39,538 bases of DNA, taken from the NCBI GenBank assembly GCA_032027165.1, contig JAVSMO010000001.1:2172204-2211741 (forward strand), in the 5' to 3' direction. The stretch comes from Denitratisoma sp. (GTDB lineage Bacteria; Pseudomonadota; Gammaproteobacteria; Burkholderiales; Rhodocyclaceae). Below, in pieces: positions 13,432-28,043 of this stretch. A program made the translations under genes and the position numbers. The notes beneath the pieces are model-generated. The model saw nothing but the letters and a program-made list of their open reading frames with translations, had not been told where the DNA came from and made no database searches. Positions within the stretch are counted from its first letter, which is position 1, and every line of letters starts with the position of its first letter.

Positions 13432-13486
13432 AGTCTGGCTCCCGCATGTGTTGCCTTCGTGAAGATTTGATGAACGCTGCGTGACG
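13432..13486 (-). promoter_or_regulatory. Pho-box promoter of the plcP operon
   Basis: Minus strand: CGTCACG (13480-13486), GTTCATC (13469-13475), CTTCACG (13458-13464) and CAACACA (13447-13453) recur every 11 bp. After 9 bp comes the -10 candidate CAGACT (13432-13437). Layout equals that of the other four Pho-type promoters in the window. Confidence 0.75.
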
Positions 13487-13499
13487 GATGGTGCGTCCG

Positions 13500-13532
13500 C
13501 TTCATCGTCCCGTAACCTGGGCCGGGGAGAAT
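13500..13532 (+). promoter_or_regulatory. Pho-box promoter of the PhoU-like operon
   Basis: CTTCATC (13500-13506), four bases, CGTAACC (13511-13517), then 9 bp and GAGAAT (13527-13532) as -10. It is divergent from and adjacent to the plcP Pho box, so one intergenic region would serve both operons. Confidence 0.68.
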
Positions 13533-13556
13533 CCCGCCGTTCCCAGGACGATCCCC

Positions 13557-15497
13557 ATGGAAAAAGCCCACATCATCGACGCGCTTGGCGAAGGTCCGCT
13601 GCTGCTGCCGGTCCTGCTCAATGCCGCCCTGGCGGCGAACGACCGCGCCAAGTACTTCTTCACCCTGCTGCAGGCGGCGCAACTGCGCGCCGACAGCCCC
13701 GACGCCGACCCGGCCGACCTGCGCATCGAGCGGCAGGCCGCCGGCATCGAGGAGGAATCCTTCGACGGCATCGTCGCCGCCAGCCGCCGCGGCGAAGACG
13801 GCCTCTACCGCATGCCGCGCGTGCAGGCCGTGTGCACGGCGCTATACCAGGACCTGCAGCGCATGCTGGAGCCGATCCAGGCGGCCGGCAGTCCGGAATG
13901 GGGCGGCTTCGCCGCGCGCCTGAAGCTGCTCGCCGCGCGGCCCTGGTGCAAGGCGGACGACACGATTTCCGGCGAGCAGATCGCCGCCATGACCTCGGGC
14001 GAGCGCAAGCGCGCCGACAGCCTGCACCTGCTGGTGATGGACATGCACAAGGCCCTCAATGCCCTCCAGGCCAAGGTGGCCACCGAAGTGATCGACGGCG
14101 CCCAGGCCTACGACATCGGCGGCGAGGACCGCGCCCTCATCGCCGCCTTCATGCGCGGCGTGAACCAGTCGCTGCCGCTCAAGTTCGACCATCCCGGCCT
14201 CGGCACCACGGCGACCCGCTCCGCCGACACCCTGGTGCTGCAGAACGACATCGGCACCACCGACGCCCACGTCATCGTCCTGCACGTCGAAGGCCTGCGC
14301 GCGCAGCTCACCTACACCGACGTGCACATGCAGCGCCTGCTCTTCTTCCAGAGCCTGTTCGAGGGCTGGCGCGTCGGATGGGAAGACACCCGTTCGCGCG
14401 CCGACCACGAAATGGAGGACGGCGTCTATCACCTCTGCGTCGGCACCTTCGCGGCGCGCAAGGCCAAGGAGCTGGAAGACTACCTCGCCTTCCTCGGCTC
14501 GCGCCTGGTGTTCCTCATCGACTGGAACCGCGCGCGCAAGCGCCTGCGCCAGCTGCTGCCGAAAAAGGAATCCCTGGCCCTGCTGAAATGGGCGGCGGAC
14601 CACAACCACGGCCACATGGCCTTCCTGCGCGCCGGCGGCGAGCAGATGGTCGTCGACGCGCTCGCCTTCACGGCGCGGGCGCCGTTGCCGCTGGGCGCGC
14701 GCCTCGACAACGTGCTCGGCCGCGAGCAGGCGGCGGAATACATGCGCTTCGTCTTCCGCGTCTGCGCCGAGGGCCTGCTCGCCGGCCGGCCGGAAGGCCT
14801 GATCCAGGACGAGGTGCGCGCCGAGCTGGCGAACTACTTCCACAGCACGCAGCAGAGCCTGGTCGACCTCGCCGCCGAGCAGGCCGCCTTCGCCATCGAG
14901 ATCGCCTCGGGGGTGCGCGACTGCCTGATCGAGGCGCGCGGCGAGGCGGCGCCCGCCCGCTTCGCGCGCAACGCCGAACGGGCCAAGGCCTGGGAGCACC
15001 AGGCCGACGAACTGGTCAATCGCGCCCGCGGCACGGCCAGCCAGTCCGGCCGCAGCGATTTCTACCGCAGCCTGATCGAAAGCGCCGATGACGTCGTGGA
15101 CGAGCTCGAGGAAGCCGCCTTCCACCTGACCCTGCTGCCGCACGACGGCGGCGACAGCGACCTGTACGGGCCGCTGAATGCCCTGGCGCGCCTGCTCGTC
15201 GACGGCTCGCAGGAATACCTGCGCTCGCTGGAAACCGTACGCACGCTGCGGCGCGGCGGCCCGCGCGAGGACATGCAGGATTTCCTCGAGGCCATCCACC
15301 GCATCATGCTGGTCGAACGACAGAGCGACGGCGCCCAGCGCTCGGTCAAGATATCCCTCGCCCGCGGTGCGGCGGACTACCGCCGCCTGTATGCCTTCGC
15401 CGAATGCGCGCGCAATCTGGAAGCGGCGGCCGACGCCCTGATGCACGCCGGCCTGCGCCTGCGCGACCACGTGCTCGCCGACGCCGTCGCAGAATGA
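13557..15497 (+). CDS. Large PhoU/DUF47-like protein
   Basis: This 646-residue, mostly helical soluble protein starts at ATG 13557, with AGGA ten bases before it. The last 170 residues or so (from about 475) look like the DUF47/PhoU-like helical-bundle family of phosphate-transport regulators: a region near 485-523 reads ELVNRAR...DFYRSLIESADDVVDELEE, matching the DDVxDxIEE helix of that family, and further helices repeat the pattern. The first 470 residues match nothing I recognise; they contain a Trp/Arg-rich stretch around 275-330 and no membrane segment. DUF47 proteins usually have about 210 residues, so this is a threefold-long fusion. A Pho box precedes it and a dikinase-like gene follows 13 bases later. 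I infer a regulatory or phosphate-handling role; no activity is known to me. Confidence 0.6.
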   Translation: MEKAHIIDALGEGPLLLPVLLNAALAANDRAKYFFTLLQAAQLRADSPDADPADLRIERQAAGIEEESFDGIVAASRRGEDGLYRMPRVQAVCTALYQDLQRMLEPIQAAGSPEWGGFAARLKLLAARPWCKADDTISGEQIAAMTSGERKRADSLHLLVMDMHKALNALQAKVATEVIDGAQAYDIGGEDRALIAAFMRGVNQSLPLKFDHPGLGTTATRSADTLVLQNDIGTTDAHVIVLHVEGLRAQLTYTDVHMQRLLFFQSLFEGWRVGWEDTRSRADHEMEDGVYHLCVGTFAARKAKELEDYLAFLGSRLVFLIDWNRARKRLRQLLPKKESLALLKWAADHNHGHMAFLRAGGEQMVVDALAFTARAPLPLGARLDNVLGREQAAEYMRFVFRVCAEGLLAGRPEGLIQDEVRAELANYFHSTQQSLVDLAAEQAAFAIEIASGVRDCLIEARGEAAPARFARNAERAKAWEHQADELVNRARGTASQSGRSDFYRSLIESADDVVDELEEAAFHLTLLPHDGGDSDLYGPLNALARLLVDGSQEYLRSLETVRTLRRGGPREDMQDFLEAIHRIMLVERQSDGAQRSVKISLARGAADYRRLYAFAECARNLEAAADALMHAGLRLRDHVLADAVAE

Positions 15498-15510
15498 CAG
15501 GAAACCACGC

Positions 15511-26909: not shown

Positions 26910-26940
26910 GATATCGGACTCGGCAGGTCTTGCAAGACAA

Positions 26941-26970
26941 GCAAAGGCCGGCCCAGCGGCCGGCCTTTGC
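26941..26970 (-). terminator. Intercistronic stem-loop between pstS and pstC
   Basis: Perfect 13-bp stem GCAAAGGCCGGCC / GGCCGGCCTTTGC with a CAGC loop, 12 bases after the pstS stop and without a T-run. It fits partial termination or 3'-end protection that raises pstS mRNA over the permease genes, as known for other binding-protein operons. Confidence 0.75.
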
Positions 26971-26982
26971 CGGACATTGATC

Positions 26983-27978
26983 TCAGAGCTTGCCTTCGCG
27001 CTTCATCAGCTCGTCGATGGTGATGCCGACCTCGGCGTTGCCGCCGAAGACGGTGCCCAGCTTGCCTTTCTTCAGGTGGTCCAAGTTGCCGGTGTAGGCC
27101 TTCTCCGGCAGCGGCACGTACTTCACCTCGCGCGAGAGCTTGGCGCCGTGCTTCATGTAGAACTCGACGAACTTCTTCACTTCGGCGCGTTCGTAGGCCT
27201 TCTCGCTGACGTAGATGAAGATCGGGCGCGACAGCGGCTCGTAGGAACCGTTGATGACGTTGTCCATGGACGGCAGCACCGCCTTGCCCTTCGGGTTCAC
27301 CACCGGCACCGCCTTCAGCTTGCCGGTGTTCTCGGCATAGTAGGCGAAGCCGAAGTAGCCGATGGCGTTGACGTCCTGCGTCACGCCCTGCACCAGCACG
27401 TTGTCGTCCTCCGAGGCGGTGTAGTCGCCGCGGCTCGATTTGGCCTTGCCGACGACGGCCTCGGTGAAGTAGTCGAAGGTGCCGGAATCGGAGCCGGCGC
27501 CGAACAGCTTGACCGGTGCGTCCGGCCAGGCCGGGTTGACCTGGTTCCAGCGCGTCACCTTGCCCTGCGCAGCCGGCTCCCACAGCTTCTTCAGTTCTTC
27601 CACCGTCATCTGCTTGATGAAGGCGTTTTTCGGGTTGATGACGACGGTCAGCGCATCGAAGGCGACCGGCAGCTCGAAATACTTGATGCCGGCGGCGGCG
27701 CAGGCCTCCATCTCCTTCTTGAGGATGGGGCGCGATGCGTCCGAGATGTCGATCTCGCCGCGGCAGAACTTCTTGAAGCCGCCGCCGGTGCCGGAGATGC
27801 CGACGGTGACCTTGATGGCGTTCTTCTCTGCCTTCTGGAATTCCTCGGCGACCGCCTCGGTGATCGGATAAACCGTTGAAGAGCCGTCGATCTTGACGAC
27901 ATTGGACTGGGCCAGCGCGCCGCCGATGGCCAGTTGGCCCAGCGCCAGCGCGAGAATCGTTTGCTTGAGGTGTTTCAT
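26983..27978 (-). CDS. pstS: Phosphate-binding protein PstS
   Basis: This 331-residue periplasmic protein has a signal peptide (cut after ALAQ near residue 24) and phosphate-binding loops IDGSSTVYP, SGTGGGFKKFCRG and GSDSGTFDYF. It captures phosphate for PstCAB. The start has AAGGAG at good spacing. It is the first gene of pstSCAB-phoUBR and is preceded by a two- or three-unit Pho box. Confidence 0.97.
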   Translation of the reverse strand: MKHLKQTILALALGQLAIGGALAQSNVVKIDGSSTVYPITEAVAEEFQKAEKNAIKVTVGISGTGGGFKKFCRGEIDISDASRPILKKEMEACAAAGIKYFELPVAFDALTVVINPKNAFIKQMTVEELKKLWEPAAQGKVTRWNQVNPAWPDAPVKLFGAGSDSGTFDYFTEAVVGKAKSSRGDYTASEDDNVLVQGVTQDVNAIGYFGFAYYAENTGKLKAVPVVNPKGKAVLPSMDNVINGSYEPLSRPIFIYVSEKAYERAEVKKFVEFYMKHGAKLSREVKYVPLPEKAYTGNLDHLKKGKLGTVFGGNAEVGITIDELMKREGKL

Positions 27979-28010
27979 GTCTTCTCTCCTTGTCTGATGT
28001 TGCGGAGCGA

Positions 28011-28043
28011 AGTTTATTTCGTCAATGTGACGGGATTGTTACG
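28011..28043 (-). promoter_or_regulatory. Pho-box promoter of pstS
   Basis: Minus strand: CGTAACA (28037-28043), four bases, CGTCACA (28026-28032), then 9 bp and TAAACT (28011-28016) as -10. A weaker third unit CGAAATA (28015-28021) continues the 11-bp step. Because pstS is the archetypal PhoB target, this site calibrates the other four. Confidence 0.8.

Follow-up and report, generated by a model that had tools for sequence, protein, structure and literature searches.

Does the stretch of Denitratisoma sp. chromosome analysed here (39,538 nucleotides [nt], the window) hold a block of operons under one phosphate switch, and what would that switch control? The source genome is a single contig of 3,405,959 bases, and the nearest named relatives for the genes in question are Rhodocyclaceae. 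The original prediction had read an 18-kb phosphate-starvation island in which five promoters share 7-base pair (bp) units repeated every 11 bp, followed by 9 bp and a −10 element. In Escherichia coli, phosphorylated PhoB (PhoB~P) on such repeats replaces the −35 element and recruits sigma-70 polymerase. We found all five sites in place, with repeats, spacer, and −10 hexamers as described, and the island reading is supported insofar as sequence can speak: there are five operons with one site each, and the boxes recur before the same genes across genera. It is very probable that the five operons fire together under phosphate starvation through PhoR and PhoB, covering phosphate uptake, a predicted lipid exchange, a predicted breakdown of cyclic diguanosine monophosphate (c-di-GMP), the gene pair phoUL-ppsL, and pilJL. 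The five sites are as follows.

13432..13486, minus strand: Pho promoter of plcP; units at 13486-13480, 13475-13469, 13464-13458, and 13453-13447; −10 CAGACT at 13437-13432
13500..13532, plus strand: Pho promoter of the phoUL-ppsL-rapA-like operon; units at 13500-13506 and 13511-13517; −10 GAGAAT at 13527-13532
19011..19043, plus strand: Pho promoter of pilJL; units at 19011-19017 and 19022-19028; −10 TCTAAT at 19038-19043
19890..19944, plus strand: Pho promoter of olsBA; units at 19890-19896, 19901-19907, 19912-19918, and 19923-19929; −10 TAGAGT at 19939-19944
28011..28043, minus strand: Pho promoter of pstSCAB-phoU-phoBR; units at 28043-28037 and 28032-28026, with a weak third at 28021-28015; −10 TAAACT at 28016-28011

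There are four units before plcP and olsB, three before pstS (the third, CGAAATA, overlaps the −10), and two each before phoUL and pilJL. The units have an 11-bp period at all five sites, and in five of five the last unit (in pstS, the second) stands 9 bp away from the −10. From the proposed unit pattern, C(G/T)T(A/C)A(C/T)N, the last olsB unit (CGCAACA) and an upstream plcP unit (GTTCATC) deviate by one letter each and the last plcP unit (CAACACA) by two. Judged from its sequence, the promoter geometry is that of a textbook PhoB promoter, a type already known. From 9991 to 28043, the genes that were read group into five putative transcription units, one per site, with extents judged by gene spacing and overlap.

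Unit 1, minus strand: plcP-agt1-dgkA-agt2
Unit 2, plus strand: phoUL-ppsL and a gene with EAL, CBS, and GGDEF domains (rapA-like)
Unit 3, plus strand: pilJL
Unit 4, plus strand: olsBA
Unit 5, minus strand: pstSCAB-phoU-phoB-phoR

The five operons agree with those first proposed, whose contents were incomplete: the RapA-type gene in the PhoU-like operon, and two glycosyltransferase genes and dgkA in the plcP operon, had been missed.

To score the sites, we used a 33-bp matrix (unit, 4 bp, unit, 9 bp, −10, with only the units and the −10 counted), trained iteratively on the regions upstream of 28 pstS genes from 25 other genomes of the family; the window's own pstS was left out. The matrix converged on TGTAACA-N9-TAGACT, TAGACT being the −10 of the family's pstS promoters. 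Among 79,012 window positions on both strands, the five sites took ranks 1 to 5 (pstS 28.5, olsB 20.9, phoUL 20.4, pilJL 14.1, and plcP 14.1), and the sixth-ranked position scored 7.2. pstS calibrates the set, as had been claimed, and lies in one block with phoB and phoR. The possibility, raised at the outset, that such a matrix would match other sequence equally often was not borne out: 20 evenly spread 20-kb segments of the same genome held 5 of 798,720 positions scoring at least 11 and 1 scoring at least 14 (18.0, inside 23S ribosomal RNA); 0.43% of 3,000 random 480-nt stretches from the genome sample scored above 10. The matrix has two weaknesses: it imposes the 9-bp spacing, and it was seeded with typed units resembling those of E. 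coli, one of which is identical to a unit in the window. Because the spacing was imposed, we tested it apart on 146 untrained upstream regions (six sets covering five genes), allowing spacers of 4-15 bp and gaps of 0-9 bp between units. A spacer of 9 bp was best in 107 of these regions (olsB 22/29, plcP 17/29, EAL genes of the family 26/29, EAL genes of the class 16/25, phoUL 17/23, and close pilJL 9/11), and a 4-bp gap, which gives the 11-bp period, was best in 125.

The boxes also recur in relatives (genome counts for each gene include the source genome). olsB is found in 51 of 61 family genomes, and all 30 of the 51 loci that were scored (our own and 29 relatives) have a best site scoring at least 9.1. 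plcP is found in 39 of 61, with a box above 8 in 22 of the 30 loci scored, equal to 21 of 29 relatives, and a best orthologue at 24.4. The EAL-CBS-GGDEF gene occurs in 54 of 150 family genomes and 32 of 68 genera (E ≤1e-140); among the best 30 of the 54 matches, our own included, 27 of 29 orthologues have their own Pho box within 450 nt, scoring 14.6-29.1. In 25 genomes from other families of the class, 13 of 25 more distant EAL genes have boxes above 14. When each of the 25 regions was shuffled 200 times, the observed score was reached no more than twice in 17 of them; 8 fail this test. phoUL occurs in 27 genomes of the family (of 297), belonging to 13 of 68 genera, and in 5 of 250 genomes of the order. 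Its box exceeds 10 in 23 of 51 loci scored, the window left out. A recount that merged identical genomes (L008/L211 and L009/L210), dropped L027 (which matches only from residue 65), and corrected the start of L018 gives 22 boxed loci among 48 distinct relatives, the most divergent at about 36% identity. Of 26 other family genomes, 24 have their best phoUL site at −45 to −76, and 17 of the 26 score above 10; loci at 36-40% protein identity reach 27.0, and 5 of 22 loci outside the family set exceed 10. In both genomes read of genus g157, phoUL-ppsL-agt-plcP run head to tail downstream of one Pho box and are adjoined by boxed EAL and olsB genes. PilJ-like genes occur in 55 of 150 genomes, of which 30 loci were scored and one was dropped for lack of alignment. 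Ten of the 12 closest members, our own included, exceed 10 (best orthologue 26.7), and none of 17 more distant members exceeds 6.6, two of these having only 135 and 202 nt upstream; the two groups were drawn after the scores had been seen, and also differ in identity and in a sequence motif (L155 is intermediate).

Several observations weigh against a common switch. Eight of 29 plcP relatives have no box above 8, and the −10 of plcP fits TATAAT at only three of six positions, plcP and pilJL being the lowest scoring of the five sites. The rapA-like gene of the window has no box of its own and would need read-through from phoUL, and two of its 29 orthologues (L190 and L197) have none either. At phoUL, 26 of 48 loci do not exceed 10 (9 of 26 in the family and 17 of 22 elsewhere). 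One of 11 close pilJL relatives is without a box, and a second reaches 9.9. The best olsB site of L084, at −148 and lacking an acceptable −10, is probably not real. Finally, genome G259, listed as the same genus, has no match to the other island genes searched.

The rival that fares best, although we hold it to be unlikely, is that only pstS, olsB, and phoUL have true PhoB promoters, plcP and pilJL being chance matches in divergent or short intergenic regions and regulated otherwise. The two do score 14.1 against 20-28 for the other three, and the last plcP unit contributes a weak 0.2 bits; yet both stand well above the sixth-best site of the window, and their orthologues have better boxes, to the values given above. 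Moreover, the plcP −10, CAGACT, is kept in L007, L008, and L009 and ends, as in the window, 6 nt before the ATG (13425).

Of marginally lower probability is that clustering and boxes were inherited together in one transferred island, so that conservation would not show separate selection for each box. The absence of the searched genes from G259 would fit such a transfer, as would the several genera in which the genes cluster near pst; the pst-phoBR operon itself is present in G259, with a Pho box scoring 30.5. In seven family regions, plcP and/or olsB adjoin pst or phoBR, these being a set chosen because the genes were already placed close rather than a random draw. Against a shared inheritance, many relatives have plcP, olsB, EAL, and pilJL genes far apart and far from pst, yet boxed, and the EAL gene, own-boxed elsewhere, here stands behind the phoUL box.

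The operon that calibrates the set reads as a single transcription unit by gene spacing (21497..27978, minus strand), and its gene order is kept in relatives.

26983-27978, minus strand: pstS (Pfam)
25962-26909, minus strand: pstC (named by reading only)
25037-25960, minus strand: pstA (named by reading only)
24239-25030, minus strand: pstB (named by reading only)
23503-24216, minus strand: phoU (Pfam)
22808-23500, minus strand: phoB (Pfam)
21497-22798, minus strand: phoR (Pfam)

The E. coli Pho box is made up of two 11-nt direct repeats; a unit consists of 7 conserved and 4 variable nt (PMC4415409). The island matches PhoB-activated promoters of E. coli in having the same 7 + 4-nt units and in the presence of phoBR and pst. 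We compared it with an 81-nt E. coli pstS promoter, typed in, that matches 5,372 of 5,426 E. coli genomes. With the −10 of that promoter placed where we take it to be, the distance from last unit to −10 is the same 9 bp. Unlike in E. coli, the island units read C/T-G/T-T-A/C-A-C/T, the family's pstS −10 is TAGACT, there are up to four units, and the target genes are others. That the repeats instead serve some other regulator of the OmpR/PhoB family that also uses 11-bp direct repeats is highly improbable: direct repeats of about this step are presumably not exclusive to PhoB, but the matrix was calibrated on a classical PhoB target, pstS, in 28 promoters of relatives, phoB sits in the same block as the five sites, and the spacing agrees with E. 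coli pstS.

We therefore favor joint control by PhoB: with a shared switch at the same spacing that recurs before the same genes in relatives, the cluster is likely coinduced at phosphate exhaustion. Under starvation, PhoR would phosphorylate PhoB, and PhoB~P would bind the 11-bp repeats, take the place of the absent −35 element, and bring in sigma-70 polymerase. pstSCAB-phoU-phoBR would then serve signaling and uptake. The plcP-agt1-dgkA-agt2 products would yield diacylglycerol and glycolipid and those of olsBA ornithine lipid, exchanging phospholipids for phosphate-free lipids, while the RapA-type phosphodiesterase would lower c-di-GMP and loosen the biofilm. What is new here, on sequence grounds, is that phoUL-ppsL and the pilJL subfamily would belong to the regulon and that the RapA-type gene is so widespread in it. 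The pstS-derived matrix serves as a reading key, assigning phoUL-ppsL, a PilJ-like subfamily, and, in many genera, a RapA-type phosphodiesterase to the phosphate response; each assignment could be checked by one low-phosphate experiment.

The plcP operon comprises four genes.

12643..13425, minus strand: plcP, PlcP-like metallophosphoesterase (Pfam Metallophos, 4.1e-11); domain and synteny predict a lipid-renovation phospholipase C
11453..12643, minus strand: agt1, GT4 glycosyltransferase overlapping plcP; the top NCBIfam match, alpha-monoglucosyldiacylglycerol synthase, does not reach its cut-off
11121..11486, minus strand: dgkA, prokaryotic diacylglycerol kinase (Pfam, 8.7e-33)
9991..11124, minus strand: agt2, second GT4 glycosyltransferase, overlapping dgkA (Pfam Glyco_transf_4, 6.5e-32)

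Domains and gene order make this a candidate PlcP-Agt renovation operon, but the NCBIfam matches fall below cut-off. In Pseudomonas aeruginosa, plcP and a glycosyltransferase gene share one operon behind a Pho box (PMC8528852). The island operon resembles this PlcP-Agt1/Agt2 system in having a plcP-like gene and a glycosyltransferase gene behind a Pho box, and differs in its two glycosyltransferases and dgkA, in the olsBA genes nearby, and in a plcP messenger RNA (mRNA) predicted to be leaderless. The ATG lies 6-8 nt after the −10 in 12 of 22 plcP loci with a box above 8 (our own and 11 other genera); nine of the other ten have their first in-frame start 9-62 nt after the −10, and L115 has a GTG at 7. 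Two loci, L092 and L096, have an additional in-frame ATG within the −10. The SDIHLG stretch, presumably metal-binding, already starts with codon 10, so that there is hardly space to place the start codon further downstream. With transcription beginning about 7 bp after the −10, the plcP start site would fall on its ATG; given this close −10 and the early SDIHLG, we predict a transcript that opens with the AUG itself. The leaderless mRNA is a sharp prediction that can be tested cheaply. In L008 (Sulfuritalea sp. PRO1), about 5 kb separates plcP from phoUL, and the stretch at 5032-8007 holds two extra Pho boxes (15.1 and 18.3); of the genes behind them, by eye, one has a membrane-like N-terminus and one is secreted and perhaps PhoX-like.

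The second lipid operon holds two acyltransferase genes.

19976..20734, plus strand: olsB, OlsB-like ornithine N-acyltransferase; best NCBIfam match OlsB, 173 bits against a cut-off of 320
20731..21516, plus strand: olsA, OlsA-like O-acyltransferase; best NCBIfam match OlsA, 138 bits against a cut-off of 300

Both fail the NCBIfam equivalog cut-offs, hence the labels OlsB-like and OlsA-like. olsA and phoR are convergent and overlap by 20 bp (21497-21516), so strong olsBA transcription would enter the end of phoR.

Behind the phoUL box stand three genes.

13557..15497, plus strand: phoUL, 646 residues, with a conserved N-terminal region (1-420) and a C-terminal PhoU fold (425-646)
15511..17175, plus strand: ppsL, half a pyruvate phosphate dikinase with ATP-binding and phosphohistidine domains; active-site His kept
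17172..19007, plus strand: rapA-like, EAL-CBS-GGDEF by Pfam; EAL catalytic positions kept, GGDDF replacing GGDEF

The rapA-like gene, third behind the box, overlaps ppsL by 4 bp; it has the same place in L008 and is not there in L007 and L009. The EAL positions checked (E, N, E, DD, K, E, and Q), which we take to be the catalytic ones, are kept in the window protein and in 29 of 29 orthologues, many with the signature EGL, and all 30 family proteins aligned (L180-L209) have GGDDF where the GGDEF motif is expected. PA3258 of P. aeruginosa is an EAL-CBS-GGDEF protein with RapA as its homologue (PMC12900916), and RapA of Pseudomonas fluorescens Pf0-1 is induced by way of a Pho box and, when phosphate is low, depletes c-di-GMP (PMC3032545). 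We infer from the shared architecture and from PMC12900916 that the window gene is the same device as RapA: the likeness extends to the EAL catalytic positions, Pho boxes before the orthologues, and predicted c-di-GMP breakdown at low phosphate, and the difference is its place as a third gene without its own box. With Pho-boxed RapA-type phosphodiesterases in many genera, c-di-GMP loss at phosphate starvation looks old and common rather than Pseudomonas-specific.

In phoUL, the PhoU helical fold is confined to the C-terminal part, and residues 1-420 gave no clear PDB match. Unlike PhoU or the DUF47 (PhoU_div) family, the PhoU part is joined to a region of some 420 residues in which Asp, His, and Arg residues are invariant. 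ppsL adjoins phoUL in 25 of 27 loci, the contig breaking off within phoUL in the other two, and in all 15 regions of a second set. Its product aligns with PDB entry 1kbl over the ATP and phosphohistidine domains (2.1e-121), keeping the residues at what we take to be the Arg92, Glu323, Gln335, Arg337, and His455 places of pyruvate phosphate dikinase. The C-terminal pyruvate/phosphoenolpyruvate-binding domain is absent from the 554-residue protein: the match to the dikinase model stops at 510 of 865 positions and scores 525 bits against a cut-off of 843. We read the two as a putative phosphoryl-transfer pair. It is possible, though doubtful, that phoUL-ppsL is an undescribed PhoB-controlled system. 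In it, the half dikinase would charge its His from ATP and phosphate, or work in reverse to regain phosphate out of pyrophosphate, and would hand the phosphoryl group on to its PhoU-fused partner. The pair would belong to a conserved starvation module that also exchanges membrane lipids and degrades c-di-GMP by means of a class-wide RapA-type enzyme. phoUL-ppsL pairs also occur in L022 and L023 (record titles Acetobacteraceae and Acidocella), where no Pho box of this type precedes them.

The remaining unit holds one gene.

19073..19885, plus strand: pilJL, PilJ-domain protein; sole Pfam match PilJ (1.9e-7); N-terminus signal-peptide-like by eye

Its product is likely periplasmic. pilJL is a member of a Pho-boxed PilJ-like subfamily whose more distant homologues are without boxes.

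Beside the island, at 28955-33185, lie LUD-domain/LutB-like and cysteine-rich-domain genes of the lactate utilization type, together with short-chain dehydrogenase and LuxR-type response regulator genes; no matrix score there exceeds 4.3. Other strong Pho boxes, scoring up to 27.6, were seen in L168 (2153-4301), L169 (982-1025), and L241 (2390-2472 and 15735-15856). The L169 box precedes an ABC-ATPase-like gene, and one of the L241 boxes precedes an agt-like gene.

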